The position numbers and the translations under genes are program-made. 64,000 bases of DNA, taken from the NCBI RefSeq assembly GCF_014647455.2, contig NZ_BMPF01000004.1:62001-126000 (forward strand), in the 5' to 3' direction. Positions 15,670 through 63,122 of this stretch are shown here, piece after piece; position 1 is the first letter of the stretch, and the number at the start of each line of letters is the position of its first letter. The notes beneath the pieces were generated by a model that ran no database searches, had not been told where the DNA came from, and saw only the letters and a list, made by a program, of their open reading frames with translations. This DNA is from Halarchaeum grantii (lineage in GTDB: Archaea; Halobacteriota; Halobacteria; Halobacteriales; Halobacteriaceae).

Positions 15670-15695
15670 ATTGAGACAGCCAGTCTCAACTACTG
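15670..15695 (-). repeat. Right terminus of the 12.2-kb element, with a perfect stem
   Basis: TTGAGAC-agcca-GTCTCAA (15671-15689) is a perfect 7-bp stem. The outermost bases, read from the right, give CAGTAGTTGAGACT, matching the left terminus over ten bases. Confidence 0.65.
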
Positions 15696-15703
15696 CGTAG
15701 TGA
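15696..15703. repeat. 8-bp target-site duplication, right copy
   Basis: CGTAGTGA, identical to 3481-3488. It begins the intact MFS N-terminal coding sequence on this side. Confidence 0.8.
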
Positions 15704-37536: not shown

Positions 37537-38651
37537 CAACAGACCCAGACGCCGCCGCACGACGCATCATGCATCAGTTCGGCGAGGAGAGCCGCATCCC
37601 CTACCTCAACATCGAGGAGGGAGACGTCGGCGTTCTCATCGCCTTCCCCATCATCGGGCTTTTCCTCGCCGCGATGACCGGCATCGACTCGCTCGCGCTC
37701 CCGTTCGTCGCTGGTGGATTCGGCCTCGGCGTCGCCATCATCTACGTCGCCCCGAGCCACCTCACCGCCTGGACGTGGGCCACCGACGTCTACCAATACC
37801 TCAAACGCCCCCGTGTCACCTTCAGCGCACCCGACGAACCAGACTCTGGGACGAACGAGGCTCTTCGGAACGAGGGCGGGCTGGCGAACTATACGCCGTT
37901 CCAGCCGGACGAACGCACCCAAGACCTCACCAATATCGAACGTGCGTGGCCCGGCGCCGGCGCCATCCAGCGCTCGGACGGCACGATGGAGGCGTTCGTC
38001 GAAGTCGACCCCGACAACATGGACTTCGCGATGGCCGAGGACTGGGCCCAGTTACAGGAGGCGGGCGCGGAGTTCGCGAACAAGGAACTCGACTCGAAGC
38101 TCAAACTCCACGCCACCACTCGCGAGTTCCCCGTCGAGCAAGTCGTCGAGAACATCCAGGACCGCCTCGACGACGAGGACGTTCAGGAGAATCCCGTCTT
38201 CCGCGAACTCCTCGAAGAATATCTCGAAACGCGTCCGCGTGAGATGCGCGAGCGCGGCATCCAACAGCTCCACTACTACATCGGCGTCGAGGTCTCCCCG
38301 ATGGAGGTCTACGACCGCTATCGCGACGAATCCACTCCCGCCGAGAAACTGACCGAGCTCCCCGTCATCGGCTTCCTCTTCAACCCGTTCGTCACCCGCC
38401 GGGAGAACCTCCAAGCGGCTGAGCGGCGCGCGCGGATGTTCGACACCTTGGACGACCGCGTCGCCGCCGTCCGAAGCGAGTTCGTCCAGCAGGCGAGTGG
38501 CTGGTCGGCACGCCGTCTCACCACGGTCGAACTGTTCACGCTCGCGATGGACTTCTGGAACGGCCACGACCACGACTACGACAATCCCGACTCGCTCATC
38601 CGCCAGCAACCCACCATGAATCACCAGACACGCGAGGACACCGATGCATAA
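37533..38651 (+). CDS. Membrane-associated VirB3/PrgI plus VirB4-N-like protein (372 aa)
   Basis: Two hydrophobic spans at about residues 33-50 and 58-75 (DVGVLIAFPIIGLFLAAMTG) resemble a PrgI/VirB3 module. A soluble part follows with AWPGAGAIQRSDGTMEAFVE and a long helical, charged stretch, as in the N-terminal domain of VirB4 ATPases. No Walker motifs are present; those are in the next gene. It appears to be the split N-terminal portion of a VirB4-like system. It overlaps both neighbours by 4-8 nt. Confidence 0.6.
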   Translation: MTTDPDAAARRIMHQFGEESRIPYLNIEEGDVGVLIAFPIIGLFLAAMTGIDSLALPFVAGGFGLGVAIIYVAPSHLTAWTWATDVYQYLKRPRVTFSAPDEPDSGTNEALRNEGGLANYTPFQPDERTQDLTNIERAWPGAGAIQRSDGTMEAFVEVDPDNMDFAMAEDWAQLQEAGAEFANKELDSKLKLHATTREFPVEQVVENIQDRLDDEDVQENPVFRELLEEYLETRPREMRERGIQQLHYYIGVEVSPMEVYDRYRDESTPAEKLTELPVIGFLFNPFVTRRENLQAAERRARMFDTLDDRVAAVRSEFVQQASGWSARRLTTVELFTLAMDFWNGHDHDYDNPDSLIRQQPTMNHQTREDTDA

Positions 38652-40833: not shown

Positions 40834-43800
40834 GTACCTCCGCGTCACGCCGACCTCCGAAGAACTGGACCCGTCGGGGATTCCGCGACTCCTCGAGAGC
40901 CTCCACAAACTCACTCGCGAGGAGTCTGGCTTAGGGTCGACGCTGAATCCGTTATCGTCCTCGACGCCGCCGCGCTTCGAGTTCCTCGCGCTCAGCGACG
41001 GCGACGACGCGCCCGTCGAGTTCTACTACGGCGCCGACGATGGCCTTGAGACTGTTGAAGAGCGCCTGCAGTCGATCTATCCGACAACCTTCGACATCGA
41101 ACGCGTCGACCTCGATGTCGAGTCTCGTCTTGTTCAGCCGGCCGAGTACTCACGCGAGGAGTTCGTCGACGCCTACCAGCAGGGCGACCTCCAGTACGAG
41201 TTCGACGAGGACGAGCAGTACGAACTCACCGATGAGGGGGAGGCTGAGGCCGCGGACGTCGATGTGACTGCGGACAGCGTGGTGTCCGTCGGCGAGACCG
41301 CACTCGAACTCGATGTCGCGGATAACGCACCGGTCGAGAAGCCGACGGTGACTGAGCGTGGGTCGATTCTCGCCCGTCCGGCGACCGAGACGGTGTCGCC
41401 CTATGGCGTGCGCTGGCAGGGTGCGGCGACGCGCAAGAAAGACTGGATGACGTCGCTCACCCCATTCACGGACGGCGAGGACGAGGAATCACTCTCGGCA
41501 GTCAACCAGCCGGGCGCCGCGCTTGCCTCGCTGATTGACCACGTGAACGACGCCACAGAGCCACTCGCGTTCCAAGTCGTCTTTGAGCGGCGTGAGAGCT
41601 GGCAGTCGGATGCCGCACTCCGGAAGGAGGACATCATCGATAGCCGAGATACGCGGGCGCAGCGAATCGTCGGCGACCTACTCGAGTTCGCGGAACTTGA
41701 CGACCACGGCGACCGTGAGCTGAGCGACCTGGTCGAACGGCGGCTCAACGCAATCGAGGCGATGAATCCCCAGCGCTCGTTCACGGTGAACGTCCGGGCA
41801 GTCGGCGTGCCGACCAGCGACACTGGGACAGAGTCGCTCGACACACGGCTGTCGTCGCTCGCCCCGGTGTTCGACCCGCTTGATGGTCCCTTCTACGACG
41901 TCGAACCCAAGCGAATCCGTGAGAGTGGCTTTCGCGCCGCAAAGAAGGAGAAGAACGCACGCAAAGCCCTACAGCGTCTCCTTGACCGCGACATCGTAAC
42001 TGGCCGTGGGAAGACACGACCCGACTTCGTGCTGAGTGGGCGCGAGCTCGCGAACTTCCTCCTCGTCCCCTCCTCCGAACAACTCACGATTGAAGGCTCT
42101 CGTGGGACACGGGCGGAACAGCAGAGTCGGAATCCGCTCCCACGCCCGAATCCGGATCTCCGCGAGCAGTTCCGCGACGGGATGGCCATCGGCTACGCGC
42201 TCGACGAAACGGGAGAGACAGAGGACGAGCCAGTCCGCATTCCGCCCGACTTGCTCACGACCCACTACGGGCGCTTCGCGTCGACTGGTGCCGGCAAGTC
42301 GAAAGCAATCATCAACGACGCGCTCTCCCTCCGTGAGACGACCAGTGGCCCCGTCGTCATCGTCGACCGAAAGGGCGACGGCATGTGTCAGAACTATCTC
42401 CGCAGCCACCACGCACAGTTCGACGATATAGAGGACGTCTACCACTTCCGCGTCCCCGAGACCATTCCCGCGTTCTCCTTCTTCGACATCCGGCCCGCAC
42501 TTGCGGCCGGTCGGAGTCGTGAGGACGCCGTCCAGGATAAGGTCGATCACTTCCACGATATCCTGCGGATGATTCTCGGCCGGGAGAAACACGAGCGGGC
42601 GTTCGTCGCCAACGAGATTCTCAGCCAGCTCATCAAGGCGCTCTTCGACGCCGAGTACGGCAGCGACGTCTTCGGACTCAACGACCTCTTCACTGCAGTC
42701 CGCCGGATGCAGGACGAACAGACGATTCCCCCGATCTCGATGGCGAACCAACCAGTCGAGGAATCCTTGACCCGCCACCTCTCGAAGGAGGAATCACAGT
42801 TCCAAGCGTCGATGGACGCCGCCGGGAACCGCCTCGAACAACTCCGCGAAAGCCCCCACCTCCGACGTGTCTTCAACCATACGCCCGCGCAGAACGACGC
42901 CGGCGAATACGTCGAGAACCACTTCGACTTCCGGAACTTCCTCGACGAGGACGTCACCATCCTCCTCGACTTGGGCGACCTCCGCCCCGAAGCACAGCAG
43001 GCAGTCACGCTCCTCCTGTTGAGCAACCTCTGGGATGCCGTGCAGGTGCGGCGGCGCGACGGCCAGACCGACTACGAGAACCTGACCAACCTCATCATCG
43101 AGGAGGCCGCGCCGGTCGCATCGACGCGACTCGTTTCCGAGCAGCTCCTCCCCCAGGGCCGGTCGTTCGGCCTGAGCATGGGACTCGTGATGCAGTTCCC
43201 CGGCCAAGTCCGCAATCGCAGTGAACGCGCCTATGACGAGGTCTTGAACAACATCAAGACGAAGCTCATCGGGAACATCTCGATGGAGCGAGACCTCGCT
43301 GAGTCGCTCGCACACGAGGGATTGAGTCCGACCGACCTCCGGAATCGCGTGAACACACTGCCGAGTGGCGAGTGGATCGCCCAGCTTCCGAGCCCGGCGT
43401 TCGGCGAAACCGGCCCGTCGCCGTTCTCGATGAAGCCACTCCCCATCGCTGAGGGCCACCCGGAGAGCGACACTCCGCTCACCGAGATGGAAGCGTCCCA
43501 GTTCGAGTCGGTAACACTCCCGCGTATCGTCGAGCGGACGCAACGCCAGTACGGCCTCAGCGCAGAATCCGATACGGCCGCGGACAACGGCTGGGGAAGT
43601 GGCTCTAACAACTCCACATCACCGGAGGTGGAGACCACTCATTCGGAGTCGACGATGCTCGGTGGCTCACCCGGCGAAACCAGTAGTGACTCCACCGCCA
43701 CCGAGAGCAGTCCACTTCTCGGCGGTGGAGACTCCCCAGACAACTCGGGGACCAATGCCTCCGAGTCGGCCTCTTCGGAGTCAGAAGCCGATACATCGCC

Positions 43801-44539
43801 AGTTGACGCTGGTGGAGTGTCCGTCCCTGATGCAGAGTTGGAGCGGCGCGGACTCAGCCGCGACGACGCGCGCTTCCTGCAGGACGTCCTCGACGTGATG
43901 AACGGCGCCGACGCCGCCCAATCCCTCCTCGAGCCGATGAGTGAACTCCGCGACGAGTACGCCGATCTCGACGTTCAGCGACTCCTCGATCAAGACTTGC
44001 TCACGAAGGCGTCTGCTTGTGGACGGACCTACTACACCGTTCTCCCAGCGGGCCGTGAACTTCTCGGCGAGCGACTCACAGTCGGTCCCGGCCAAGGCGA
44101 TATCGGTGAACGAACACCCCACAAGGTCGGTGTCGAACTCCTGCGTCGCTGGCTCCAAGACCACGAGTCCGTCACGCGTGTCGAAACCTACTACGAACAC
44201 GACCCGGAGACAATCTTCGACGTCGCCGGCTTCGACGACGATGGAACGCTCGTCTGGGTCGGTGAAGTAGAGATGGCGAGTCACAACAACGACGCGCCAA
44301 TCGGGGACTACGACAAAATGAGTGTCGTCGACGCGGACGTCGTCTGGGCGTTCAACAGACGCTCGTTCGCCGTCGAAACCATCGACACGCTCGCCGACGC
44401 GGATCGACTCGCAGACAACGTGAGTGGACGCGCCACTCGCTCGTTTGCAGGTATTCGCGATGCGGTGAGTAAACTGGATGCCGCCGGGCTAACCACCGTT
44501 CAGAGCTTCAACCATCTCGACGAGACCTATAACGAATGA
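40826..44539 (+). CDS. Giant VirD4/HerA-like coupling ATPase (1237 aa)
   Basis: An N-terminal region of about 450 residues, acidic and without recognised motifs, precedes the ATPase core: Walker A STGAGKSK (486-493), an IVDRKGDG segment typical of VirD4/TraG-like proteins, Walker B-like TILLDLGD (about 711-718), and LPQGRSFGLSMGLVMQFPGQ. A Ser/Thr/Glu-rich linker (about 930-1000) leads to a separate C-terminal domain (about 1010-1237) with winged-helix-like sequence and FDVAGFDDDGTLVWVGEVEM. The length is far above the usual 500-700 aa. It probably couples DNA to the secretion channel; the C-terminal domain may act on DNA. Overlaps the primase gene by 4 nt. Confidence 0.82.
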   Translation: MSEYLRVTPTSEELDPSGIPRLLESLHKLTREESGLGSTLNPLSSSTPPRFEFLALSDGDDAPVEFYYGADDGLETVEERLQSIYPTTFDIERVDLDVESRLVQPAEYSREEFVDAYQQGDLQYEFDEDEQYELTDEGEAEAADVDVTADSVVSVGETALELDVADNAPVEKPTVTERGSILARPATETVSPYGVRWQGAATRKKDWMTSLTPFTDGEDEESLSAVNQPGAALASLIDHVNDATEPLAFQVVFERRESWQSDAALRKEDIIDSRDTRAQRIVGDLLEFAELDDHGDRELSDLVERRLNAIEAMNPQRSFTVNVRAVGVPTSDTGTESLDTRLSSLAPVFDPLDGPFYDVEPKRIRESGFRAAKKEKNARKALQRLLDRDIVTGRGKTRPDFVLSGRELANFLLVPSSEQLTIEGSRGTRAEQQSRNPLPRPNPDLREQFRDGMAIGYALDETGETEDEPVRIPPDLLTTHYGRFASTGAGKSKAIINDALSLRETTSGPVVIVDRKGDGMCQNYLRSHHAQFDDIEDVYHFRVPETIPAFSFFDIRPALAAGRSREDAVQDKVDHFHDILRMILGREKHERAFVANEILSQLIKALFDAEYGSDVFGLNDLFTAVRRMQDEQTIPPISMANQPVEESLTRHLSKEESQFQASMDAAGNRLEQLRESPHLRRVFNHTPAQNDAGEYVENHFDFRNFLDEDVTILLDLGDLRPEAQQAVTLLLLSNLWDAVQVRRRDGQTDYENLTNLIIEEAAPVASTRLVSEQLLPQGRSFGLSMGLVMQFPGQVRNRSERAYDEVLNNIKTKLIGNISMERDLAESLAHEGLSPTDLRNRVNTLPSGEWIAQLPSPAFGETGPSPFSMKPLPIAEGHPESDTPLTEMEASQFESVTLPRIVERTQRQYGLSAESDTAADNGWGSGSNNSTSPEVETTHSESTMLGGSPGETSSDSTATESSPLLGGGDSPDNSGTNASESASSESEADTSPVDAGGVSVPDAELERRGLSRDDARFLQDVLDVMNGADAAQSLLEPMSELRDEYADLDVQRLLDQDLLTKASACGRTYYTVLPAGRELLGERLTVGPGQGDIGERTPHKVGVELLRRWLQDHESVTRVETYYEHDPETIFDVAGFDDDGTLVWVGEVEMASHNNDAPIGDYDKMSVVDADVVWAFNRRSFAVETIDTLADADRLADNVSGRATRSFAGIRDAVSKLDAAGLTTVQSFNHLDETYNE

Positions 44540-45417
44540 CGTGGCGCGCCGCGACTCGCGACGACCTGGACACGTACTATACCGACGAATTCCCCGACTA
44601 CGTCGACGACCTGCCGTCGTTCATCACGGCGACCGGGCCCAAACAGTACGCACTCGCGTTCGACCACCCTCATCCCGTCCGAAAAGACGAGGTGCCGGAC
44701 AAGGACTTCGTTCGACGGGATACGTGGCAGACCGATGCCGCCGGTGAGCGCCAGCAGGCGGAGTTCGATGGATTCGACGACGTCCTTGACTTCATCCAGC
44801 ATCCCGCACGGAACGACCCGCTCGGCGGAAGCGAATTCGCACTCGCCGACCCCGGCCTGCTTGACCAGCCGGACCCGCGTCCGGATGCAGTCTACTACGC
44901 CCTCGATAACTGGGAGCGCCCCTGGGTGCTACTCGTCGACATCGACGCGAAGACAATCGCTCGCGAACGCGCCGCAGACGCACTCCCACAGGACACGAGC
45001 GACCGTGACGACGAGGCGCTCCTCGAAGCGACCGGCATCCTGGGTGCGGAGCCAGCCGGCTATCCGTACGCCTTCGAGGATATCGACCAAGCAATCGAGT
45101 ACGGGTTCGAGGTGCGAGATATCTTCGCGGACGACTTCGACGCCGAGAAGACGATGGTCGTCTACAGCGGCCAAGGCGTCCACGTCTACCTCCTCGATAC
45201 CGATCTCGCCCATCGCTACGACGCACAGAGTCGTGAGGTCCTCAACGACCTCCTCCTCGAGTCATACGACATCCCGATCGATCCAGTCGTCACTGCTGAT
45301 CGGCGTCGCGTCGCCCGCCTCCCCTACTCGCTCCACGCTGATGTTTCCCGTATCGTCCAGCCGATCGAGTCTCCGCAGTTCGACCCACGGACTGCCACGC
45401 CAGCCTTCCTCGACTGA
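44536..45417 (+). CDS. Archaeo-eukaryotic primase, PriS-like (293 aa)
   Basis: The AEP catalytic motifs are visible: motif I LLVDIDAKTIA (D135, D137), motif II VVYSGQGVHVYLLD (S-G-x-G-x-H, H216) and a third conserved region with PVVTADRRRVARLPYSLHAD. PriS makes primers in replication. A plasmid copy in a conjugation operon would suit second-strand synthesis in the recipient, which is inference. Start and stop overlap both neighbours (ATGA and A of TGATGG). The protein is shorter than chromosomal PriS and lacks an obvious zinc motif. Confidence 0.85.
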   Translation: MTWRAATRDDLDTYYTDEFPDYVDDLPSFITATGPKQYALAFDHPHPVRKDEVPDKDFVRRDTWQTDAAGERQQAEFDGFDDVLDFIQHPARNDPLGGSEFALADPGLLDQPDPRPDAVYYALDNWERPWVLLVDIDAKTIARERAADALPQDTSDRDDEALLEATGILGAEPAGYPYAFEDIDQAIEYGFEVRDIFADDFDAEKTMVVYSGQGVHVYLLDTDLAHRYDAQSREVLNDLLLESYDIPIDPVVTADRRRVARLPYSLHADVSRIVQPIESPQFDPRTATPAFLD

Positions 45418-46934
45418 TGGCTACCACAACCCCCACGGACGACGAACGCACCGCCTACCAAGTCGCCGCGCTCCCCACCGAATACGGCGAGATTCGGATT
45501 AACCAGCTGTTCACGCGCGGGTTCAACCGCTATATCGTCGACGGCGAGGACCAGCCCCAAGACCTCCTCGACGACCTCGAACGCTTCGGGACCGCCGCGT
45601 TCAAAGACGACGTCCGGGATACGGCGGCTCGGGAGCCGTTCGTTGACGAGCCGGGCACACTTGCAGTCCTCGCGACGCTGAGTGCGATCTGCATCAAAGC
45701 CCACCCGAAGTTCGAGGACGTCCCCCCGCGGAAGGTCCAGCCACTCTACGACGTCCGCGAACTCTACGTGAACAATCTCGGCTCACTCATGCGCGACTAC
45801 AGTGACGGTGCGCTCCAGCAGGACATCGCGGAGGTCCTCTACGCGAAAGATCCGGGAGAGGATGGCCCGCACCCGGGACGTGTCTGCACCGGAATCAAGG
45901 AGATGCCCGAGTTCGACGGCGGCCTCTACCTCGAAATCCCGATGGCCGCCGCCTCCCGGAAATGTCTCGTCCGCGACGACCAACGGCCCAGTGATGAGGG
46001 TGAGACGGCGGAGATTCGGACGCGTGTGAAGGACAACAACCTGTACGTGCCGGCTGGTGATTTCGACGAGAAATACAGCGAGTACGCACGAGACGCGTTC
46101 AAGACACTGCTCCGCGAGCAGGAGGGTGGACTCTCTGAGGACCAGCAGACGTGGTTGGTGGCGAACGAGTCGGCAATCACCGAGCGGATCGACCGGTTCC
46201 TAGAGGGTGGCAATCACGACCGAATTTGGCGAGACTGGGACCGAGGTGAACGTCTCGTTCGCGTCCTTCGAGAGGCAGTCACCCACGCTGCGGATGACAC
46301 GGCGACGGTTGGGGCGTTCCACTCCGCGCAAGCGCTCTATGACGCGCTGGCTGCCTACGACCCGGAAGCAGCGTGGAAACAGAGCATCCAGAATCGGGTG
46401 TCGAGTCCGCGCAGTCTCGGCAATCTCCTCGTCTCGCAGCAAGACCACCGCAGGCTCACCGTCAAGCACGACCGGGAAACGAACCAGTATCGGATCGATG
46501 CGTCGTCACGTGGCGCTCACCCGATCACCGTCGAGTCGATTGAGGATCTCTTCGAGCTGCCCTGCATGGCCAACATGGCCGAACGCCTCCAGGAGAAAAA
46601 GCCCGTCCGGAAAGATCTCTACAACTTCGTGCGGATGGTGATGTGGCTCCCCCAGTACCAGGAGAGTAGTCTGGACGAAATTGTCGCCGATCTCAAGGAC
46701 GTCTTCTCTCGGTGGCCGTGGTACGACGAGCAGGAAACTGAGTACCAGATCCGCTACGAGTTCTCCAACACCATCAACGGCGACACCCCGCTTCCGATGA
46801 ACTGCGATAACGATGACCTCCAACGCTACTGTATCGGCCAGGATCAGTGCGACTACTCGATCTGGGGTAGTGTCCCCTTCCCGGACGAAATGTACGACCA
46901 ACTCGACGGGCTAGATTCCGCCAGCGAATTCTAG
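45417..46934 (+). CDS. PriL-like primase large subunit with Fe-S domain (505 aa)
   Basis: The C-terminal 140 residues hold four cysteines spaced as in the PriL [4Fe-4S] domain: C383 (LPCMAN), C463 (MNCDND), C472 (RYCIGQ) and C478 (DQCDYS). The motif RKDLYNFVRMVMWLPQYQES lies between the first two. The N-terminal part is helical with AICIKAHPKF early on. It overlaps the PriS-like gene by 1 nt, so both subunits are made together. The Fe-S domain has a second, detached copy at 56187-56606 with very high identity. Confidence 0.82.
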   Translation: MATTTPTDDERTAYQVAALPTEYGEIRINQLFTRGFNRYIVDGEDQPQDLLDDLERFGTAAFKDDVRDTAAREPFVDEPGTLAVLATLSAICIKAHPKFEDVPPRKVQPLYDVRELYVNNLGSLMRDYSDGALQQDIAEVLYAKDPGEDGPHPGRVCTGIKEMPEFDGGLYLEIPMAAASRKCLVRDDQRPSDEGETAEIRTRVKDNNLYVPAGDFDEKYSEYARDAFKTLLREQEGGLSEDQQTWLVANESAITERIDRFLEGGNHDRIWRDWDRGERLVRVLREAVTHAADDTATVGAFHSAQALYDALAAYDPEAAWKQSIQNRVSSPRSLGNLLVSQQDHRRLTVKHDRETNQYRIDASSRGAHPITVESIEDLFELPCMANMAERLQEKKPVRKDLYNFVRMVMWLPQYQESSLDEIVADLKDVFSRWPWYDEQETEYQIRYEFSNTINGDTPLPMNCDNDDLQRYCIGQDQCDYSIWGSVPFPDEMYDQLDGLDSASEF

Positions 46935-53972: not shown

Positions 53973-54260
53973 TCAGTCGTCAGCTGTGTAGGCTCCGCTC
54001 CGGTGTTCGATTCGGTGAACTTCAAGGACGAGCGCGTCCCGGTCAAGAACACACGCAAGTCGATACTGCCCGACGCGAAGCTTCTCGAACGGGCCACCAG
54101 TCAGTGGTTCAAGATAGTCGTCCGGATCCCGCCATGGGTCGTCGACAATCTCGTCGAGCTTTGAAACAATCCGATCCTGAACGTGGTGTTCCAGATTGTC
54201 GAACTGCGTGGCAGCGCGTGGTGTGAACTTCCACGTCCACTCGTCATCCTTACTCCCCAT
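53973..54260 (-). CDS. RelE/ParE-superfamily toxin (95 aa)
   Basis: The fold pattern is clear: WTWKFTPRAATQFDNLEHHV (strand-helix), DPWRDPDDYLEPLTGGPFEKLRVGQYRLACVLDRDALVLEVHRIEHR (strands with K/R residues used for mRNA or ribosome contact in RelE). The Y/R-rich C-terminal HRIEHRSGAY fits. It overlaps the antitoxin gene upstream by 11 nt, as usual in such operons. Probable mRNA interferase; could be a gyrase-targeting ParE type. Confidence 0.88.
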   Translation of the reverse strand: MGSKDDEWTWKFTPRAATQFDNLEHHVQDRIVSKLDEIVDDPWRDPDDYLEPLTGGPFEKLRVGQYRLACVLDRDALVLEVHRIEHRSGAYTADD

Positions 54261-54546
54261 CCGTACCGTCGTCCATCATCGCCAGCACGTCCTCACGAGA
54301 CACAAGCTCCTCGTCCCCAGTCCGAAGTTCGTGTTCGCTTGCGGCAATCTGCTTCCAGCCCTCACGCGAGAACTCCGGATGCTTGACCGCGTCTCGTGCT
54401 GCATAGCGGAGGAATTCACTTCGTGAATTGAAGCCTTGTTCTTCCCACGTCGTGTCGATATCATCAAGGAACGCTTGCGTGAGTCGGAGATTAATTTGGA
54501 CAGTCTCCGGCCCGTCATTCCCCGTTGAGCTTTCGGCATCAGACAT
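54250..54546 (-). CDS. Ribbon-helix-helix antitoxin (98 aa)
   Basis: An RHH DNA-binding domain is seen at about residues 14-58: ETVQINLRLTQAFLDDIDTT (beta strand and helix 1) and GFNSRSEFLRYAARDAVKHP (helix 2). The C-terminal tail, acidic (LVSREDVLAMMDDGTDGE), would bind the toxin. It is the first gene of the RHH-RelE operon. A TATA-like TACTAGTATATC lies close upstream (54549-54562 region, minus strand), allowing autoregulation. Confidence 0.85.
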   Translation of the reverse strand: MSDAESSTGNDGPETVQINLRLTQAFLDDIDTTWEEQGFNSRSEFLRYAARDAVKHPEFSREGWKQIAASEHELRTGDEELVSREDVLAMMDDGTDGE

Positions 54547-55151
54547 GATATACTAGTGCTTTACGTCCGTATATCAGATAAACATTCCCCACGAGAGTCT
54601 AGCCCGTCAGACGCTGGCGGACTCGTTTCTGAGTGTGCTGTCCGGTTCGTACCAGACTCACAACGGCAATACGCCGATTAGGGGCACACTCGGTTGACCG
54701 GTGTGACGCGACGGTTCGCCGCGCTCGGCGCGTGCCGCCGGTCGCCTGCTCACGGTTCACGGTGTTCACCGTTCGCGTCGCTCGCGACCGACCAGTCCGG
54801 GCATGCGGGCGCTCTCCGCACCGCCCGCGCCCGGTCCGGGCTAAAATGGATATGGTCTCGACGCCAGCGCTTCACCCGTTCGGGTCCAGAGGACCGCGGC
54901 GTTGCCGCCCGCGACGGACGGGGTTGCGTCGCGGCGAACGGGGAATGCGCTGGCCGCTCGCTCCCGGCGGGTCGCCGCGCGCGGCTGGATAGTGGCCGCT
55001 GTGTCGAGCGCTCTCGCTCGCCCCCACGGGGGGCGAGGCGAAGGCGCGAGCGAGAGCGCAGAGACGTCACTGTCGGTCGTTGTGCCGAGGCCCCCGCGAT
55101 GTTGGAGCATCGCGGGCGTCAGCGCGTAAGCGCCTTCAGAGGATTACTGCA
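54547..55151. other. GC-rich non-coding region before the RPA-like gene (605 bp)
   Basis: Long open frames exist here but have no protein-like composition. The region is very GC-rich with many CG-rich inverted runs. The clearest structure is a perfect 14-bp stem at 55008-55059. Confidence 0.45.
55008..55059. repeat. Perfect 14-bp inverted repeat upstream of the RPA-like gene
   Basis: GCGCTCTCGCTCGC (55008-55021) and GCGAGCGAGAGCGC (55046-55059) with a 24-nt loop. It lies about 93 nt before the RPA-like start. Confidence 0.7.
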
Positions 55152-56042
55152 ATGTCGAGTCAGAACGCGAGTCAGAAGGTTGTTTCGGTGGATGAACAGT
55201 TTGGCGGCGGCGAGCGCGAGACGGTCGACGAAGACGGCCTCACGGTCGTAGCGGAGACGCCGGCGTTCCAGGCCACGGTCCAAGAGGAGACGCAGGCGAA
55301 GGTCGACGCGAACCACCCGGACGGAATCGCGGACGCGAGTCAGGAGCGGATTCCCGGTGTGACGCTTGCACAGGAGGAACGCATCAAGGCGCGTGAGGCA
55401 GAACTTGAGCGGATCAGCTCTCAGGCGGAGCTGGGCGAGCAGGAGGGACGTGCCGAGCGGGCGCGCGACGTCGCGGCCGAGCGGAGCGCCGCGTGGAGCA
55501 GGGAGTTCGAGCGGCGCGCCGCCAGCGTGGACCAGTCGCTGAGTCCCGATCACGACCCACGTGAGCAGCTCTCGCAGGACGAACTCGGGGCGGTGAACGA
55601 GCAAGCCTCCAGGTTGGCGGGCGAGCTCGATGGGTGGTCGCGAGCGGCGGTCAGCCGGCGGCTCGCACAGGCGGTGCGCGACGGCGCGGACATCCCCAGT
55701 GCCGTCCTCGACGTGAAAGACGAACTTGAGGCCGCACCTGGACAGATCATCCCCATCGATCGGGTTGGCGATGTCGATCGGCAGGAGGTGAGTGTTCGCG
55801 GACGCGTGAAGACGCTCTGGACGCCCTCGAGTGCAAAGATTGCCCAAGTCGGCCTCCTTGAAGATGACTCTGGGACGGTCAAGTTCACGGTCTGGGAGAA
55901 GAGCGCGCAACCAGCGGTAGCCGAAGGCGAGACCGTGTGCATTCGGGGAGCTGCCCGAAGCTGGTACCAAGGCCGGGTGTCCGTCACGTGCACCGGCTGG
56001 ACCACCATCAACTTCCCTGGGCGCGGCCGCTACTGGGAGTAG
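55152..56042 (+). CDS. RPA-like single-stranded DNA-binding protein (296 aa)
   Basis: ATG at 55152 (MSSQNASQKVVSVDEQFGGG). A long charged helical region (EERIKAREAELERISSQAEL and following) leads to a C-terminal OB fold: GQIIPIDRVGDVDRQEVSVRG, TLWTPSSAKIAQVGLLEDDS, TVKFTVWEKSAQPAVAEGE, CIRGAARSWYQGRVSVTCTG. These strands match the nucleic-acid-binding domains of haloarchaeal RPA. Such plasmid copies lack the multiple OB folds of chromosomal RPA. It stands just upstream of a detached PriL Fe-S domain, which suggests a replication-related segment. Confidence 0.82.
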   Translation: MSSQNASQKVVSVDEQFGGGERETVDEDGLTVVAETPAFQATVQEETQAKVDANHPDGIADASQERIPGVTLAQEERIKAREAELERISSQAELGEQEGRAERARDVAAERSAAWSREFERRAASVDQSLSPDHDPREQLSQDELGAVNEQASRLAGELDGWSRAAVSRRLAQAVRDGADIPSAVLDVKDELEAAPGQIIPIDRVGDVDRQEVSVRGRVKTLWTPSSAKIAQVGLLEDDSGTVKFTVWEKSAQPAVAEGETVCIRGAARSWYQGRVSVTCTGWTTINFPGRGRYWE

Positions 56043-56186
56043 CACGACCAGCGTAGCCTCTTTCTTTTTGTCTGCCGGACCAGACCAAGCCCCGCCGTCC
56101 CACCCTCCGCTCCGTGCTCGCTCCCACACGGGTCGCTGCGCGCGCAGCCACAACCCGAATCGGGGGAGTCAGAACCGGCGCCGAGC

Positions 56187-56606
56187 AGATTCGAGGTCCG
56201 GGAGATCGAGGACCTCTTCGAACTCTCCTGTATGGCGAATATGGAGAAGCGACTGCACGAAAAGAAGCCCGTCCGGAAGGACCTCTATAACTTCGCACGG
56301 ATGGTGATGTGGCTGCCGCAGTACCAAGACAGCAGCCTCGACGAGATTGTCGCGGACCTCAAGGATGTCTTCTCCCGGTGGCCGTGGTACGACGAGCAGG
56401 AGACCGAATACCAGGTTCGCTACGAGTTCTCGAACACCATCAACGGCGACACGCCGTTGCCGATGAACTGCGATAACGACGATCTGCAGCGCTACTGCAT
56501 CGGTCAGGACCAGTGTCCCTACTCGATCTGGGGCAGTCTCCCGTTCCCAGACGAGATGTACGAGCAAGTTGAGGAGGAATCAGCTGGGCCCACTGAGCAA
56601 TTCTGA
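56187..56606 (+). pseudogene. Detached PriL Fe-S domain (duplicate of the end of the 45417-46934 gene)
   Basis: The frame from about 56187 reads RFEVREIEDLFELSCMANME and continues to a normal stop at 56606. It matches the C-terminal 130 residues of the PriL-like protein almost throughout and keeps all four cluster cysteines (SCMAN, MNCD, RYCIGQDQC). The N-terminal 370 residues are missing and there is no obvious start until ATG 56232, which falls after the first Cys. It is probably a remnant of a second primase gene. A functional stand-alone domain is less likely, but the perfect preservation of the cysteines leaves it open. Confidence 0.75.
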
Positions 56607-56676
56607 ACTACAGATGTGTTATCGTTCTTGACCTACATTACTGGCTGAAAGGCCGGCATTTATTCCTGAGGCAGAC

Positions 56677-57318
56677 TCAAGCTATCTGAACCTGCGTGGA
56701 GTCCTGGAGACGTTTCTTCACCCCGGCACGGTGAAGAGCACCGATGACAAGTAGTGCATCCTCAACAGAGTTCTCCTCGCTGTACTCCTCAACGTCGTAG
56801 GCCATCCTCATGTCTCTGGCAGCCATCGTTCCAGTGGCGAAAGCACCGAATATCAGAACAGCAGCCGCGACAAAGACAGAGGGGACAAGTACAGGGATTG
56901 GCACCCACTGAAACGTCTCAACGACCTTCGGCAAAGCGAATATCGCCAACATCACGATGCCATAGTGAACCAGCATCCACAGCAGCCGGTACTCATCGAT
57001 CACATCAAAAAGATCCAAGTCCACCTCCACGATCTCCGCGTCGTATTCCTCCGCCAAGTCGTATACGAGATGAGAATCATGGAAGCCTGCGATCTTGAAC
57101 AATTTCTGGCCCAGCAGCATCAGGTACAGAGCTGCGACCAAGAGAGGGACCATGATCAGGTTCGCCAGGTGCTCTAATTTCCTAGGCCTCTTTGCCAAGG
57201 GTGCCTCGACAAAGATGACATCAAGCCGGTCGAAATCATTAGCATCCGAGTCTTTTCTTCGGGAAGGGAGAGTGATATGATTCCCGCCGGAGATATGGAG
57301 CTCTGTTCCAGCCATCAC
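56677..57318 (-). CDS. Unrecognised membrane protein (213 aa)
   Basis: Start MMAGTELHISGGNHITLPSR or the next Met. Three hydrophobic spans are visible (about residues 53-70, 115-132 and 142-162). A soluble segment between the first two holds HDSHLVYDLAEEYDAEIVEVDLDLFDVIDEY. The LDVIFVEAPLAKRP and EEYDAEIVEVDLDL phrases faintly recall TraB/PrgY-type proteins, but I cannot assign it. Base composition is lower in GC than the surrounding plasmid genes. It is divergent from the three-gene operon that starts at 57371 and shares its promoter region. Confidence 0.6.
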   Translation of the reverse strand: MMAGTELHISGGNHITLPSRRKDSDANDFDRLDVIFVEAPLAKRPRKLEHLANLIMVPLLVAALYLMLLGQKLFKIAGFHDSHLVYDLAEEYDAEIVEVDLDLFDVIDEYRLLWMLVHYGIVMLAIFALPKVVETFQWVPIPVLVPSVFVAAAVLIFGAFATGTMAARDMRMAYDVEEYSEENSVEDALLVIGALHRAGVKKRLQDSTQVQIA

Positions 57319-57370
57319 TGAGTATGTGTACGGGAAATGGTTTATAAGGCCATCCTCAGTCTATTCGAGT

Positions 57371-57853
57371 ATGCCAATCGACGTAGATTCTGAAGAGTGG
57401 AAGAAGGGCCGCCGACTGGATCCGCTTGAAGTCCACATCACTGACTTTCTACGTCACAATGACGAGCAGGCCTTCACGTTAGAAGAAATAACAGACCACA
57501 TTATCGAGGACGAGGCGGATGCCCTGTTCCTGTTAGACGGCGTCGACGAAGAGCAGGCACTCGAAGAAGTGGACGAGGAGACGTACGGATTGATCAAGTC
57601 CCGTATCGCGATGAAGCTGGAAGATCTCGGTTGGAGAAATTTCATCGAATGGAAGGTCATAGGGTACGAGGACGACGATATCGGCACAGTCTACTTTACG
57701 AACTCGGACAAGGAACCGGTTTCCCCCCTCGCCAAGATTCAGGACGTCTATCCACGCAAATTCAGTGGCATAGAAGAAGACATTGAGGATCTCGCTGACG
57801 ATGTAGAGGAACTGCAGTACGCGGTCAACAATCTCCGCAGAGAGAACTATTAG
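57371..57853 (+). CDS. Unrecognised acidic helical protein (160 aa)
   Basis: ATG at 57371 (MPIDVDSEEWKKGRRLDPLE) is chosen because TTTATAAGG (57341-57349) lies about 25 nt upstream as TATA box. The first half looks like a winged helix (VHITDFLRHNDEQAFTLEEI; YGLIKSRIAMKLEDLGWRNF). The second ends in a coiled coil (IEEDIEDLADDVEELQYAVNNLRRE). Possible DNA-binding or scaffold subunit. It is followed 8 nt later by the PLD-like gene, in one operon. Confidence 0.65.
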   Translation: MPIDVDSEEWKKGRRLDPLEVHITDFLRHNDEQAFTLEEITDHIIEDEADALFLLDGVDEEQALEEVDEETYGLIKSRIAMKLEDLGWRNFIEWKVIGYEDDDIGTVYFTNSDKEPVSPLAKIQDVYPRKFSGIEEDIEDLADDVEELQYAVNNLRRENY

Positions 57854-57861
57854 CCCAGAGA

Positions 57862-58887
57862 ATGAATGAATCCGACCGAAAAATCCGTAGAGAGGTCCTG
57901 AAGTACATCTACGACAAGTTCGAGGAATCGGTCCTCGACAGGGCAGGTACAGAAGGCCTCTACGGAAAACTGGACGAGGTTGACCAGAACGAGATTAATT
58001 ACAACGTTGTCCGCTTGAGAGATGAGAGGCAGATCGACTTCGATATCTCAACGGGCGGAATATACGGTTTGGAAATAACTGCGGACGGAATCGAGAAGCT
58101 GGATCAAGACGGCTACGAGACAGTCTTAGAGGACCAGATTCGGTACGATATACTGAAGCTGCTGTACGAGGCTGACCGCGAACATCCGTTCCGGTCGGTC
58201 AAACTCTCCAGCGAGGAGATAGCTGAAGAATTAGATGTCGATGAGGACCGAATCCTTCCCGCAATTGGATACTTGGATATGAAGGAGCTCGTTGATGCAG
58301 CTGTAGGATCTAGGCCTGAGGCCACGTACCGTGGAGTCGAAATCACGGGGAGAGGTCGGAATAAGTACGAACTACACGTTGAAGATGGGACTTCCATTCC
58401 GAACACGCAGCCGCTGACACGGTGGACACAGCATTCGGTAGGGCCAAATGAACCCGAGAAGGCCCAAAACCTGTTCCAGAGCGTAGTCGAGGTCGCCCAA
58501 GAGAAGATTACTATCGTCGATTGGTACTTCAAAGAACCTGCCTACGATCTTTTGGAGGGAGTTCCGGACACGGTCAATATTGAAATTCTTACATCGGAGA
58601 GAGCGTTCGATGATGAAAGCAAGTACCGCGACTTGGTAGCTGACTTTTCGGAAGGCAGATCCGGCGAGGTCGATGTCCGGTATGTCGAGTACTACGACTT
58701 CGAAGCCCGACTGTTCCATGCTAGGTATCTCGTGAGGGATGAGATCGAGGGATGGACGTGGGATCAGTCGTTCAAAGATGCAGGAGAGACTCAGCATACG
58801 GTCAGCGAGGTCAGGCCTGTGAACTTGGAGTCGACGATGGAGACCTTCCAGGCGGCCTGGGAGCAAGGTGAGCAAGTCAATGGTTAG
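57862..58887 (+). CDS. Double winged-helix protein with PLD-like C-terminal domain (341 aa)
   Basis: Two helix-turn-helix-like segments occur at about residues 8-80 (REVLKYIYDKFEESV to GLEITADGIEKLDQDG) and 92-165 (RYDILKLLYEADREHP, SSEEIAEELDVDEDRILPAI). The C-terminal part (about 205-325) resembles a phospholipase-D-like fold: ITIVDWYFKEPAYDLLEGVP, VNIEILTSERAFDDES, LFHARYLVRDEIEGWTWDQSFKDAG. The usual HxK is replaced by HAR, so catalysis is uncertain. Such wHTH-PLD proteins are found among archaeal regulators and defence-associated proteins. It overlaps or abuts the zinc-ribbon gene. Confidence 0.68.
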   Translation: MNESDRKIRREVLKYIYDKFEESVLDRAGTEGLYGKLDEVDQNEINYNVVRLRDERQIDFDISTGGIYGLEITADGIEKLDQDGYETVLEDQIRYDILKLLYEADREHPFRSVKLSSEEIAEELDVDEDRILPAIGYLDMKELVDAAVGSRPEATYRGVEITGRGRNKYELHVEDGTSIPNTQPLTRWTQHSVGPNEPEKAQNLFQSVVEVAQEKITIVDWYFKEPAYDLLEGVPDTVNIEILTSERAFDDESKYRDLVADFSEGRSGEVDVRYVEYYDFEARLFHARYLVRDEIEGWTWDQSFKDAGETQHTVSEVRPVNLESTMETFQAAWEQGEQVNG

Positions 58888-59335
58888 TAAGCCGATTACA
58901 ATCGCCTTGCCGAGAAGTGAGGATGGAATGACGGGGCGTCAATGCCCTCGCTGTGAAGGAAAATTCAGGGTTCATCTACCGACTGTTGAGGACCAATGTT
59001 ACCTGAATCTACGGTGTCCGTACTGCAGGTTCATCGATCGCTTGGACCGTTTCTTGACTGGTGAGCAACGGGCATACTGGGAGGCTATTGGACGTGATGA
59101 AACCCTCCAATTAGCATCTGATGTCACGGAGGAGGTCTTCTCAGAAGCCTTTGATGATCTGGATGGCGGCGGCCTACTCGATTTCGAGGTAGAGACAGGA
59201 AGTGTAGATTTTGGAGGTACTCATATCCCATCCTGGCAGCTGGATGTGATGACCGAGGAGGTTATCTGCGGTGAATGTTCCTTCCGCTTTGCAGTGGAGG
59301 AGGATCGGGATGGCGTTTGTCCAATCTGTCGCTGA
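58880..59335 (+). CDS. Zinc-ribbon protein of the unrecognised cassette (151 aa)
   Basis: ATG at 58880 (MVSKPITIALPRSEDGMTGR), inside the end of the preceding gene; a GTG at 58868 is an alternative. Two treble-clef-like Cys pairs open it (CPRCEG and CPYCRF) and a second ribbon closes it (CGECSF and CPICR). An acidic middle (EEVFSEAFDDLDGGGLLDFE) separates them. Translation is coupled to the PLD-like gene. Function unknown; an adaptor or nucleic-acid-binding subunit is possible. Confidence 0.68.
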   Translation: MVSKPITIALPRSEDGMTGRQCPRCEGKFRVHLPTVEDQCYLNLRCPYCRFIDRLDRFLTGEQRAYWEAIGRDETLQLASDVTEEVFSEAFDDLDGGGLLDFEVETGSVDFGGTHIPSWQLDVMTEEVICGECSFRFAVEEDRDGVCPICR

Positions 59336-59909
59336 GTTACTCGTTTGGCTATTCAGCATGTCATCTGCAATTCACCACAACTAATGAATTGTAACGATTC
59401 CGTTAAATAGTAGAAGCTGATCCTACTGAATCCCCGTCGCGCAATTTTCAGCTGCTAACACGCCCGGGATCGGGGAAACAGGGGTGTTTCTGATTCGAAG
59501 TGCTGCACTGGGAGTACCTCGAGGGGCTCAGAACAGGTGAAGGAGCAACCCAGAGAAATTCAGATACGTTTGATATTATCCCCGTTACCCCGCCGTCGAG
59601 CAATTTTAGCAGTCGAAGAGCAATTCTCGAACTCGTCAAGGTATTTTCTACCGCCTCAAATCGGCCCGACGGGATTCTTCTGCGATTTGAGCACGTGATT
59701 TCGCCTTGCATATCGCGGTTTTCGTCCAAACAAAGAGGCGATATGCAGTGTGCGAAGGCCGCCGGCTCTCTCAGGCCGAGGGGCCATCACAGGAGGAGCG
59801 GAACTACGGACGTGTCAGATGTAGCGTATAGGTTGACCGGGTACGTTTCGGTGGTGTCTGTCGCCCCCGCGAGAGGGTGGTGGGGCGCATCACGTGCCCC
59901 CGATAGACG
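59336..59909. other. Intergenic region (574 bp)
   Basis: No supported gene. The left part is AT-rich; CCGTCGCGCAATTTTC (59436-59451) and GCCGTCGAGCAATTTTAGC (about 59592-59610) echo the repeat core at 47161-47238. The right end holds the GC-rich motif before the gene at 59910. Confidence 0.4.
59859..59886 (+). promoter_or_regulatory. GTCGCCCC...GGGG motif, copy 2
   Basis: GTCGCCCCCGCGAGAGGGTG followed by GTGGGGC, ending about 24 nt before the ATG at 59910, the same distance as copy 1. Confidence 0.55.
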
Positions 59910-60320
59910 ATGGCTTCGGAACAACGCAGGAAGACACGAGCAGCGGATCACGCAGGAACTACCCCCGACGATGAGGCGCCGTGGGCGGACCTCGAGATGG
60001 CGGTTCCGACCGACCGGGATCACGCGTCGGTCGTCGCCCTCGTGGAGTGTGCCCTCGTCGAACTCACGCACGAGACCGTGGGCGCCGTCTTCGTCGCCCA
60101 CCAGGTCGGGCGGTCGACGCGGACGCAGTCCGTCGCCCGCGACGACGTCGGTGAGCAGTTCCAGAAGCGGCACGTCGACGACCCGTTCAAGACGAGCGCA
60201 TCACCCAGCTCACGCGGTCGGCATCGACACGAACCGACGGGCTGCGGACCGAACGGGAACCGGCCCCAGCTTCACCGGCAAATCGGGGATGCCCTCGAGA
60301 CCCCCCGACCGTCGGCTTAA
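59910..60320 (+). pseudogene. Paralog of the 48627 gene, probably frameshifted
   Basis: Start MASEQRRKTRAADHAGTTPD; VVALVECALVELTHETVGAV and STRTQSVARDDVGEQFQKRH match the 140-aa paralog. After DDPF the frame turns into low-complexity sequence, whereas a neighbouring frame reads DERITQLTRSASTRTDGLRT, which fits the paralog's EESVRQLTVQDELVARL. A one-base loss near 60190 (TTCAAGACGAG) explains this. The product as read (136 aa) has an abnormal C-terminus. It ends inside the fourth TTAACCAAC repeat. Confidence 0.6.
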
Positions 60321-60357
60321 CCAACAACTCTGTGTTCCCCGTCGAAGCGTTGGTTAA
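60317..60357. repeat. TTAACCAAC inverted repeat, copy 4
   Basis: TTAACCAAC (60317-60325), 23 nt, GTTGGTTAA (60349-60357). It lies about 116 nt before the TFB start. Confidence 0.85.
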
Positions 60358-60404
60358 CACCTCGGCGCCGTCGACGTCGGAGTTGCGTCGACAGCTGTCC
60401 AGTT

Positions 60405-60430
60405 TGTCACCCCCGAGAGGGGTGCGGGGC
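60405..60430 (+). promoter_or_regulatory. GTCACCCC...GGGG motif, copy 3
   Basis: GTCACCCCCGAGAGGGGTGC then GGGGC, ending about 43 nt before the TFB ATG. Confidence 0.5.
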
Positions 60431-60472
60431 GCGCTGCATCGGCGTCGCCGCGAGAAGGTGACACTGATGACG

Positions 60473-61393
60473 ATGAGCGAGATCTACGATCGTGATTTCG
60501 ACGAGGACGTCCAGTGCGGTCCAACTGATCCCTGTCCCGAGTGTGGTGGGCAGGTCAGAACGAACACGGCCGAAACCGTCTGTGACGACTGTGGCCTCAT
60601 CATCGGCGAGCAGGCAATCGACCGCGGGCCAGAGTGGCACGTCGACGAGGGCGCCGACACGGCGAAGCGAACCGGCGCGGCACTCACGCCCGCCCGCCAC
60701 GATCGCGGCCTCTCGACGGAGATCGGGACGCACCAGGACGCGAACGGTAACACCCTCTATGGCGAGACGCGTCGCCGCCTGTCCCGGCTCCGCCGTGAAC
60801 ACGCACGCAGTCGCTGGCGATCCAAACAGGAACGCAACCTCGGGCATGGCCTGACAGAGATCCGGCGGATCGCGAGTGCACTCGGCCTGAGCGACTCGGT
60901 ACGCGATCAGGCGTGTCAGCTGTTCCGAACGGCGCAGGACCAGCACCTCCTCCCCGGGCGATCGATCGAGGCGATGGCGGCCGCGAGCGTGTACGGCGCC
61001 TGTCGGTGCAACGGGCAGTCGTGGCTCATCGCCGACGTGGCGCCGATGGCGCAGGTCGGACAGGAGCGTGTTGCGAACGCCTATCGCGTGCTCAACGAAG
61101 AGCTGGGGTTGCCGACATCGCCTATCCAGCCGACACAGTTCGTGCCGCGGCTGGCGTCCGAGCTGGGGTGTACAGATGCCGTCCGACGACGGGCAGAGCA
61201 GCTTGCTGAGCAGGCCATCGACGCCGGCGTCACAACCGGGGTACATCCCGCAGGCTTCGCTGCTGGGTGTCTGTACCTGGCGGCGTGTGCCCACGACGCC
61301 CCGTTGACGCAAGCCGATGCGGCAGCGGTGGCGGACGTGACGGTTGAGACCGTTCGAAGCCATCGCGATCGGCTGCTCTCCGTTGTGGAGTAG
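60473..61393 (+). CDS. tfb: Transcription initiation factor B (306 aa)
   Basis: Archaeal TFB recruits RNA polymerase to TBP-bound promoters. The N-terminal zinc ribbon is CPECGGQ...CDDCGLI (about residues 17-38), followed by the B-reader/linker region (DRGPEWHVDEG, TGAALTPARHDRGLSTEIG). Two cyclin repeats follow: LTEIRRIASALGLSDSVRDQ to EAMAAASVYGACRCNG, and QFVPRLASELGCTDAVRRRA to GFAAGCLYLAAC. Haloarchaea carry many TFBs, and this is an accessory copy. ATG 60473 or 60467 (MTMSEIYD). A TTAACCAAC repeat and a GC-rich motif lie in its upstream region. Confidence 0.92.
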   Translation: MSEIYDRDFDEDVQCGPTDPCPECGGQVRTNTAETVCDDCGLIIGEQAIDRGPEWHVDEGADTAKRTGAALTPARHDRGLSTEIGTHQDANGNTLYGETRRRLSRLRREHARSRWRSKQERNLGHGLTEIRRIASALGLSDSVRDQACQLFRTAQDQHLLPGRSIEAMAAASVYGACRCNGQSWLIADVAPMAQVGQERVANAYRVLNEELGLPTSPIQPTQFVPRLASELGCTDAVRRRAEQLAEQAIDAGVTTGVHPAGFAAGCLYLAACAHDAPLTQADAAAVADVTVETVRSHRDRLLSVVE

Positions 61394-61839
61394 GCGAGAT
61401 ACGCTTTCGAACTTCAGGACCCCTGTTGACGGAAGGAGGCTGACATCCTCACACGACTGAAGTCGTGGATTCCACGGTCACAGACCGTGCCCCGACCTCG
61501 GGAGGTTCCACACTCGTGTAAACTACCCCACTCTACTCCCTTGGCGTGGTCCGAGGGAGCAAAGCTCTCTCGGCATCACGAGACGGCTTTCGTGGTCTCG
61601 AACGACTCCACGCTTCGGTCATTGAGGGTGTCGTCAGAACGCGTCGCGTTCTGATTGCTAACTAGAAATCGGAGATCCCTGATGATGGGGCTTTGCTGTG
61701 GGCTCCCGGCAATCAGTCTCCAGCAGTAGGCAGGTGCGTCTCCACTCCCCGACGTGGGCGAGGAGTGAAGTTTGTGGTGTTGCTTTCGAGCGTACTACGT
61801 CCCGGCGTTCTTCGCGACGGTGGAGGCCACATTCACCGG
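61394..61839. other. Intergenic region with relic IS605-type hairpins (446 bp)
   Basis: No gene supported. Adjacent perfect 7-bp stems lie at 61452-61467 (CACGACT-ga-AGTCGTG) and 61473-61489 (CACGGTC-aca-GACCGTG). The context TGACATCCTC before and TTCC after the first stem resembles the left end of the TnpB element in reverse. Confidence 0.5.
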
Positions 61840-62424
61840 CTACCCGTCCATCTCGTCCTCGAGGAACGCGGCGAGGGTATCGGAGAGACGGACGAGATAC
61901 GTCGTCCCCCACGTCGCGACGAGTACGGCGCCCACCGCGTTGAACAGCATGTCCGTGATCGTGTCGTCGATGCCGCGCTGTGCGAGCACGGCCTCGACGC
62001 CGAGATGGCGGGCGCTCTGATCGGCGAAGAACTCCAGTATCTCCCAGGCGACGCCCATCGCTACGACGAACACGATCGTGAACGCGAACATCGCCCACGG
62101 CGGGAGATACACTGACGGGACGTGGAGGTGGATCACTCGGAGCGTCGTGTACCCTGCGGCGGCGATGACGGTCGCCGAGTAGAGGTGCGTGAGGGTATCC
62201 CACTGCGAAAGCACGTCGTACAGGCCGACGGTGCCTAGGGCGTGGAGGAACACGGCACTCGTGATCCACAACGCGAGTCCCGGTTCGATCGGGATGCCGT
62301 AGTCGCGCTCAAGCACAGCGGGCAGGAACGTGATTCCGAGCATCGTCCCGGCGTTGACCAGCAGCGGGAGCTGACGGGTCCAGAGCCCGTAGAGGAACAC
62401 GAGACCGAGCATGGCCTGCATCAC
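61840..62424 (-). CDS. YjdF/DUF2238-like membrane protein (194 aa)
   Basis: About six membrane spans. The conserved blocks are WDTLTHLYSATVIAAAGY, AWEILEFFADQSARHLG and RGIDDTITDMLFNAVGAVLVA, with the D-T-x-T-H and D-T-x-x-D motifs typical of this family. Function unknown in archaea. Start MMQAMLGLVFLYGLWTRQLP. It overlaps the end of the upstream membrane-protein gene by 4 nt, so the two are translated together. Confidence 0.8.
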   Translation of the reverse strand: MMQAMLGLVFLYGLWTRQLPLLVNAGTMLGITFLPAVLERDYGIPIEPGLALWITSAVFLHALGTVGLYDVLSQWDTLTHLYSATVIAAAGYTTLRVIHLHVPSVYLPPWAMFAFTIVFVVAMGVAWEILEFFADQSARHLGVEAVLAQRGIDDTITDMLFNAVGAVLVATWGTTYLVRLSDTLAAFLEDEMDG

Positions 62425-63122
62425 CGCCGCGATTCGTCGTTGGCGCGCCGTCGAGAGGCTGAGCCGATCACTGATGAGCGCAGCTTGGGGGTCTCAGTCG
62501 GCGGCGTGTCCTCCGCAGCGATCCGGGAGTCGGGCGATCCGGGTGTGCGCTGGAAGTACCGGTAGAAGGCGACGCCGGCGACGACGCCCGCGACGGCGAC
62601 GGAGAGGAACTCGATCATCACCGCCCTGTTGATCGCCATTCCCGATCGACCGTCGAGCAGGAACGACGTCCCGAGCAGGACGTCAGCGCTCCAGCGGAGG
62701 ATCTGGCGGACGCTGGCCACCGCCAGCGTGACTAGGACCGTCAGCACGACGCTCAGCCACGGAACCAGCCGGAGGTCCGTGAACAGGTGGAGTTCGACCA
62801 CGAACAGCAGTCCCAGCGTGGCCGTCGAGAGGCTCGGAACGATCGCCGTCGCCGGACCGCTCGGGATGAACACCTGCCAGAGCAGGGGGAGACAGATCAG
62901 GCCGAGGAACTGCCACGGTGGCACGACGGTGGGGTCGCGAAACGCGACGGCAGGTGCCAGGACGATGGCGATAGCGATGATAGTCAGTAGTGTCGCCCCG
63001 TACTGACCGGTCGACACGTCACGGGCGAGAGCACCGATCAGTACTGCGACGAACAGCCATGACAGTACGGTATTGGCCGTCGAGTTCGTAAAGAGCGCCG
63101 CGAGCCTGTCGGTCTCCGCCAT
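62421..63122 (-). CDS. Membrane protein coupled to the YjdF-like gene (233 aa)
   Basis: Start MAETDRLAALFTNSTANTVL at 63122 is preferred over a longer frame from 63176. Five or six hydrophobic spans are visible, for example TLLTIIAIAIVLAPAVAF, PWQFLGLICLPLLWQVFIP and VMIEFLSVAVAGVVAGVAFY. The C-terminal tail is basic and disordered (KLRSSVIGSASRRRANDESR). It looks like the YjdF-type N-terminal partner but no family is certain. A relic hairpin lies upstream (63192-63211). Confidence 0.72.
   Translation of the reverse strand: MAETDRLAALFTNSTANTVLSWLFVAVLIGALARDVSTGQYGATLLTIIAIAIVLAPAVAFRDPTVVPPWQFLGLICLPLLWQVFIPSGPATAIVPSLSTATLGLLFVVELHLFTDLRLVPWLSVVLTVLVTLAVASVRQILRWSADVLLGTSFLLDGRSGMAINRAVMIEFLSVAVAGVVAGVAFYRYFQRTPGSPDSRIAAEDTPPTETPKLRSSVIGSASRRRANDESRR

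Follow-up and report, generated by a model that had tools for sequence, protein, structure and literature searches.

A conserved winged-helix/PLD-fold and zinc-ribbon gene pair in a foreign cassette of Halarchaeum grantii: a candidate haloarchaeal defence module

Introduction

The gene pair described here, P0003-P0004, lies in a low-G+C cassette on a 64,000-nucleotide stretch of Halarchaeum grantii DNA (contig NZ_BMPF01000004.1, positions 62,001 to 126,000; hereafter the window, whose numbering is used unless another locus is named). Several described systems resemble it in part. TrmB and TrmBL2 join a winged helix to a phospholipase D (PLD)-like domain, as do the PLD-winged helix fusion endonucleases Aba4572I and CbaI. 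In haloarchaea, a PLD-family protein with a role in immunity, AgaP of the APAP (pAgo-AgaP) system, restricts plasmids via its own catalytic centre, according to the available part of its description (PMC11442185). Among the PDC families modelled in PADLOC, PDC-S05 ends in a PLD-fold domain and PDC-M14 comprises subunits A and B; in the part of the source at hand, the PDCs are guilt-by-embedding candidates, most of them without validation (PMC12988326).

P0003 carries two winged helices followed by a C-terminal PLD-fold domain with an HxR motif, and P0004 is a double zinc ribbon. By contrast, TrmB and TrmBL2 have one winged helix-turn-helix (wHTH), no HxR in the alignment and no zinc-ribbon partner, whereas Aba4572I and CbaI come from work on bacteria and have the reverse domain order. 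AgaP, encoded next to pAgo, has its PLD domain at the N-terminus, carrying HxK and a distant GSxN. PDC-S05 is similar to P0003 in its C-terminal domain, and its haloarchaeal relative L136 also has HDR...D, but the match takes in neither the N-terminal tandem winged helix nor a zinc-ribbon partner; PDC-M14 subunit A is matched by P0004 over its N-terminal zinc ribbon, but P0003 has no M14B match. The pair is not described in the literature on PDC-M14, PDC-S05 and VPA1262, nor mentioned in a paper on BREX-related systems (PMC12839542), within the available portions of these sources.

Results

The core of the cassette is the pair P0003-P0004 (57862-59335). Among 391 Halobacteria genomes searched, P0003 was matched in 13, near full length in ten and by its N-terminal module only in three, and P0004 adjoins P0003 in all ten with the near-full-length match. 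P0004 was matched in 11 genomes, the same ten and one (G355) with a weak match that was dropped, since it lies inside an unrelated long open reading frame (ORF); a second weak match (G226) was also dropped. In all 13 readable junctions (window, L002-L004, L027-L033, L035 and L095) the start of P0004 overlaps the stop of P0003. The other two genes of the cassette behave differently: P0001 homologues occur in 22 genomes and P0002 homologues in 25, in both cases with P0003 in only two (this genome and Halobellus), and the complete set was found in three places only, namely this genome, Halobellus clavatus and Haloplanus rubicundus. Eight of the ten pair genomes lack both P0001 and P0002 in these searches, and therefore neither gene seems to be needed by the pair. 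The first-pass annotation had taken the four genes for one functional unit; by the refutation test set with it, this is rejected, since the P0001 and P0002 families are scattered and occur apart from the pair. In locus L035 (7263-9361) a transposase-type ORF splits P0003 and the downstream P0004 stays open, while in the metagenome-assembled genome locus L095 P0003 is split between frames. No P0003 was found in viral contigs or phage records; the viral contigs hold one P0004 relative (25%).

The AlphaFold2 model of P0003 (11 sequences; mean pLDDT 78.5, pTM 0.53) shows a PLD-like domain preceded by two winged helices. In this predicted model the PLD part scores Z 12.9 against NucT (root-mean-square deviation 3.1 over 134 residues), 12.8 against the TrmB sugar-binding domain, and 12.3 against both Nuc and the restriction enzyme SauUSI, so that the four modelled fold scores are tied. 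A PLD-like protein without a clear HxK had been noted at the outset, and the motif proves to be HxR, with H286, R288 and D293 invariant among P0003 homologues (alignment A5) and kept in L136, a more distant PDC-S05 relative (alignment A10). The PLD-domain profile finds Nuc, and HMMER puts the HxR over the HxK of that nuclease. A likeness to the human MITD1 motif was left unconfirmed, MITD1 being missing from the fold-match and domain-profile lists. The Pfam search of P0003 returned no family at E<1, TrmB included, and an NCBIfam match to the VPA1262 N-terminal domain is sub-threshold (25.3 bits vs a cut-off of 80). PADLOC, however, matches PDC-S05 to 12 of 12 P0003 sequences (E 4.7e-10 for the window protein and 1.9e-16 at best) and PDC-M14A to 12 of 12 P0004 sequences (window protein E 3.4e-11). 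Together with the TraB-family motifs of P0001 described below, these matches overtake the initial view that no family could be named.

The surroundings of the pair are frequently those of defence genes. The 91 ORFs near the pairs of ten loci matched 157 PADLOC families at 1e-6; the ORFs were chosen on their length and acidity, a heuristic adjusted by hand through four additions and a few omissions, and therefore some neighbour genes may be missed. When 20 proteins were scanned singly, specific PADLOC defence matches were found near the pair in seven of the ten loci: pAgo and a Cas4-like protein (L030), type I restriction (L032), a TmtA-like ATPase and PDC-S11 (L028), HmaB-like and HmaC-like genes flanking the pair with a DrmD/HmaA-like helicase adjacent (L033, where a transposase-like ORF is also present), a QatA/PifA-like NTPase (L031), an Mrr-like endonuclease (L003) and a DndD/LmuB-like ATPase (L095). 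The pAgo is the only one among the 91 ORFs and lies several kb from the pair, and in the window no ORF of that size stands next to the pair. PDC-M14 subunit B was not seen among P0001-P0003, nor among the 25 neighbour families listed of the 157.

A viral contig (L096, 1953-2996) and bacterial plasmids (L098-L100) carry P0004 relatives that are extended by a long C-terminal stretch; of three plasmids opened, two have AbiH and WYL genes or a gene for a P-loop NTPase next to the relative. As the plasmid relatives stand beside other genes, the zinc-ribbon family is wider than the P0003-P0004 pair.

The cassette is a foreign unit, as first proposed from its composition. Its G+C content is 51.7% overall (P0001 52.8%, P0002 50.9%, P0003 51.8%, P0004 51.5%), vs 60.0% in the window, 63.2% at 54000-56600 and 65.1% at 60000-62500, and a sliding window as long as the cassette falls this low at only three of 246 positions, all overlapping the cassette. 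The stretch 56155-59354 has 90.3% nucleotide identity to Halobellus clavatus, and 56662-59354 has 88.7% to a Haloplanus rubicundus plasmid, with different surroundings in both, which bears out the transfer. All four ORFs are open, without internal stops, at the coordinates first annotated, with the membrane gene P0001 opposite to the other three, as had been described (Table 1); their ratio of nonsynonymous to synonymous substitution rates is 0.05-0.15 in the three copies compared (window, Halobellus, Haloplanus), that is, purifying selection, which marks them as real genes rather than ORFs open by chance. A TATA-like TTTATAAG stands about 25 bases upstream of P0002.

The insertion site is a plasmid cargo site. 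In the window and in Halobellus the cassette has on one side the 3' end of a 'primase-associated protein' gene, of which the window keeps a remnant, and on the other a conserved flank. The same flanks are found on plasmids, the query matching 107 records, none with 80% of it; among seven plasmids opened (L156-L162), the site is empty in two (L157 and L160, flanks close together) and holds other cargo in five. Elsewhere in the window, conjugation-type genes with TrbL/VirB6 and VirB4-like matches occupy 36313-46934, with a primase-like gene downstream, a TFIIB-family transcription factor gene (60422-61393) adjoins the cassette, and two small overlapping ORFs at 53973-54546 resemble, by eye, a RelE-type toxin and its antitoxin.

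Table 1. Positions of the cassette genes, their domains and flanks, and of proteins in other loci that carry the tandem winged-helix module.
Feature	Locus	Coordinates	Strand	Description
Left flank of cargo site	window	56155..56606	+	3' remnant of 'primase-associated protein' gene; conserved across plasmids of haloarchaea
P0001	window	56677..57315	-	membrane protein, TraB/PrgY/GumN-like motifs; start ATG 57315
P0002	window	57371..57853	+	small wHTH-like protein, 160 aa; start probably ATG 57371, because homologues begin MPI or MPV there
P0003	window	57862..58887	+	341 aa; two winged-helix domains and C-terminal PLD-fold domain, PDC-S05-like
P0003 tandem winged-helix module	window	57862..58407	+	residues 1-182; AlphaFold2 model, fold matches
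P0003 PLD-fold domain	window	58414..58887	+	from residue 185; fold matches, domain profile
HxRx4D motif	window	58717..58740	+	H286, R288, D293; aligns with HxKx4D of nuclease Nuc (1BYR)
P0004	window	58880..59335	+	double zinc ribbon, PDC-M14A-like; 151 aa from ATG 58880 (155 aa if read from GTG 58868)
P0004 start / P0003 stop overlap	window	58880..58887	+	ATGGTTAG; junction comparison
Right flank of cargo site	window	59422..60183	+	conserved in haloarchaeal plasmids
Module with Schlafen AlbA_2 domain	L036	7152-8228		
Module with PQQ-type beta-propellers	L037	8417-14641		
Module with PQQ-type beta-propellers	L152	7737-11885		
Module with PQQ-type beta-propellers; kinase with propeller	L038	2939-8293 and 9109-12798		
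Module with N-terminal hydrophobic segments	L153	7631-8491		
Module with N-terminal hydrophobic segments	L154			
Module alone	L155	6915-8178		beside trypsin-like protease gene

P0001 looks like a divergent TraB-like membrane protein, and it is not assigned as a member of that family. The TraB/PrgY/GumN motif pattern consists of two GxxH motifs and, between them, an E and an R that precedes D/E/N. P0001 homologues show this pattern, the first GxxH lying near the start and the second near the end, with G12, H14, E38, R168, G193 and H196 invariant in eight sequences, and the same pattern is present in the TraB proteins examined here. The Pfam PF01963 score is below its cut-off (12.5 vs 26.8 bits), hhalign against five haloarchaeal TraB proteins gave E 4.2e-5 and a probability of 69.6% over the N-terminal half only, and Foldseek of the P0001 model against PDB gave no match at E<=0.001. 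Most likely, P0001 was inherited along with the other genes in this form of the cassette. The P0002 family is small and haloarchaeal, with varied surroundings in the ten loci read, and mostly occurs away from P0003; a small regulator is the likeliest role for P0002.

A profile of the tandem winged-helix module (12 rows) matched 12 of 217 genomes, two of them weakly (E ~5e-4), and the module recurs in several architectures (Table 1). Next to the module-bearing beta-propeller protein of L152 lies a long protein (12100-15903) with an N-terminal helix-turn-helix (HTH), a P-loop-like segment and tetratricopeptide repeats, which may be of the STAND-type NTPases that it resembles.

Discussion

P0003 and P0004 travel together, often beside antiviral genes, so they probably form an immune module that has been little studied, to which two unrelated genes are attached as passengers. 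The reading that we favour, and which we think has an even chance of being right, is that P0003 is a nuclease-type effector and P0004 its zinc-ribbon partner in a two-protein antiviral or anti-plasmid module; the PADLOC candidate matches and the frequent defence-gene neighbours add weight to it. The first suggestion of a defence module thus holds for P0003-P0004 and lapses for the four genes as a unit. The two proteins would be translationally coupled and carried as cargo of haloarchaeal plasmids and defence islands. Judging from fold, motif and neighbours, the tandem winged helices of P0003 may recognise invading DNA or a partner protein, and its PLD-fold domain, probably a dimer as in Nuc, may cut nucleic acid, with H286 as the putative nucleophile and R288 presumably replacing the usual lysine, while the zinc ribbons of P0004 may bind nucleic acid or restrain the effector.

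Several observations weigh against this. P0003 has neither HxK nor a clean GSxN, and so departs from the HxKx4D...GSxN pattern; by sequence profile the regulator TrmBL2 (E 3.4e-5) is a closer match for its PLD domain than Nuc is (E 6.3e-4), and in one of the ten genomes (L035) the gene is interrupted by a transposase-type gene. Both PADLOC matches are partial, PDC-S05 covering residues 200-326 of 341 over positions 182-297 of a 306-position model, and thus not the N-terminal part, and PDC-M14A spanning model positions 4-86 of 152, and PDC-S05 and PDC-M14 are themselves unvalidated candidates. No specific defence neighbour was found in L004, L029 and L035, where one, no and one protein, respectively, were scanned singly. 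Moreover, 105 control ORFs from ten arbitrary stretches also matched 57 PADLOC families, a rough contrast given that the control positions were hand-chosen rather than random and that one protein can match many models; the listed control matches include many GajB models with one matching member each. Finally, a PADLOC scan of seven other cargo proteins from the plasmid site yielded one HTH protein only, and the site as a defence hotspot is unsupported.

The main rival, which we hold to be unlikely, would make P0003 a TrmB-like transcription regulator whose winged helices bind an operator and whose PLD fold is a non-catalytic ligand sensor, with P0004 as co-regulator. TrmB proteins combine a wHTH with a PLD-like fold, as P0003 does, TrmBL2 is the best PDB match both by Foldseek (E 1.5e-8) and by the domain profile as given above, and the TrmB sugar-binding domain shares in the tied fold scores. 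However, HxR is invariant among the homologues of P0003, whereas the alignment with TrmBL2 has a gap at these positions, as expected of a retained active site; P0003 has two winged helices instead of one and no Pfam TrmB match, and its strict coupling to a zinc ribbon amid variable neighbours does not suggest a fixed regulon. Somewhat less probable is a type IV (modification-dependent) restriction enzyme, in which the winged helices would recognise modified DNA, with cleavage nearby by the PLD domain: the ATP-dependent restriction endonuclease SauUSI matches the PLD domain and methylase genes occur near some relatives (L033, L036), but the published fusions place the PLD domain before the winged helix, and the zinc-ribbon partner is left unexplained. 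An addiction or plasmid-maintenance pair, with P0003 as toxin, P0004 as antitoxin and no antiviral role, is improbable, although a coupled two-gene operon on plasmids and the disruption of P0003 beside an open P0004 in L035 agree with it. Such a pair does not predict the defence neighbourhood, and its gene order would be opposite to the commoner toxin-antitoxin order, in which the antitoxin comes first.

The winged-helix module invites a broader and rather doubtful proposal: that it is an undescribed haloarchaeal adaptor which couples interchangeable effectors to large kinase/beta-propeller sensor proteins bearing the same module. P0003-P0004 (HxR-PLD and zinc ribbon) would then be one effector arm among others comprising Schlafen AlbA_2, a trypsin-like protease and transmembrane segments. 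The recurrence of the module across architectures supports such a role without demonstrating it. The proposed role is comparable to that of effector-associated domains; a word search of the available text of a paper on these (PMC7159879) finds neither PQQ nor Schlafen. If the proposal is true, haloarchaea would have a modular sensor-effector network.

Archaeal immunity beyond CRISPR and restriction is poorly described, and in this locus two unvalidated computer-predicted candidates, separately matched by PADLOC, are joined into one conserved gene pair, whose putative active site is defined, whose carrier is mobile and which is small enough for testing in Haloarcula or Haloferax.
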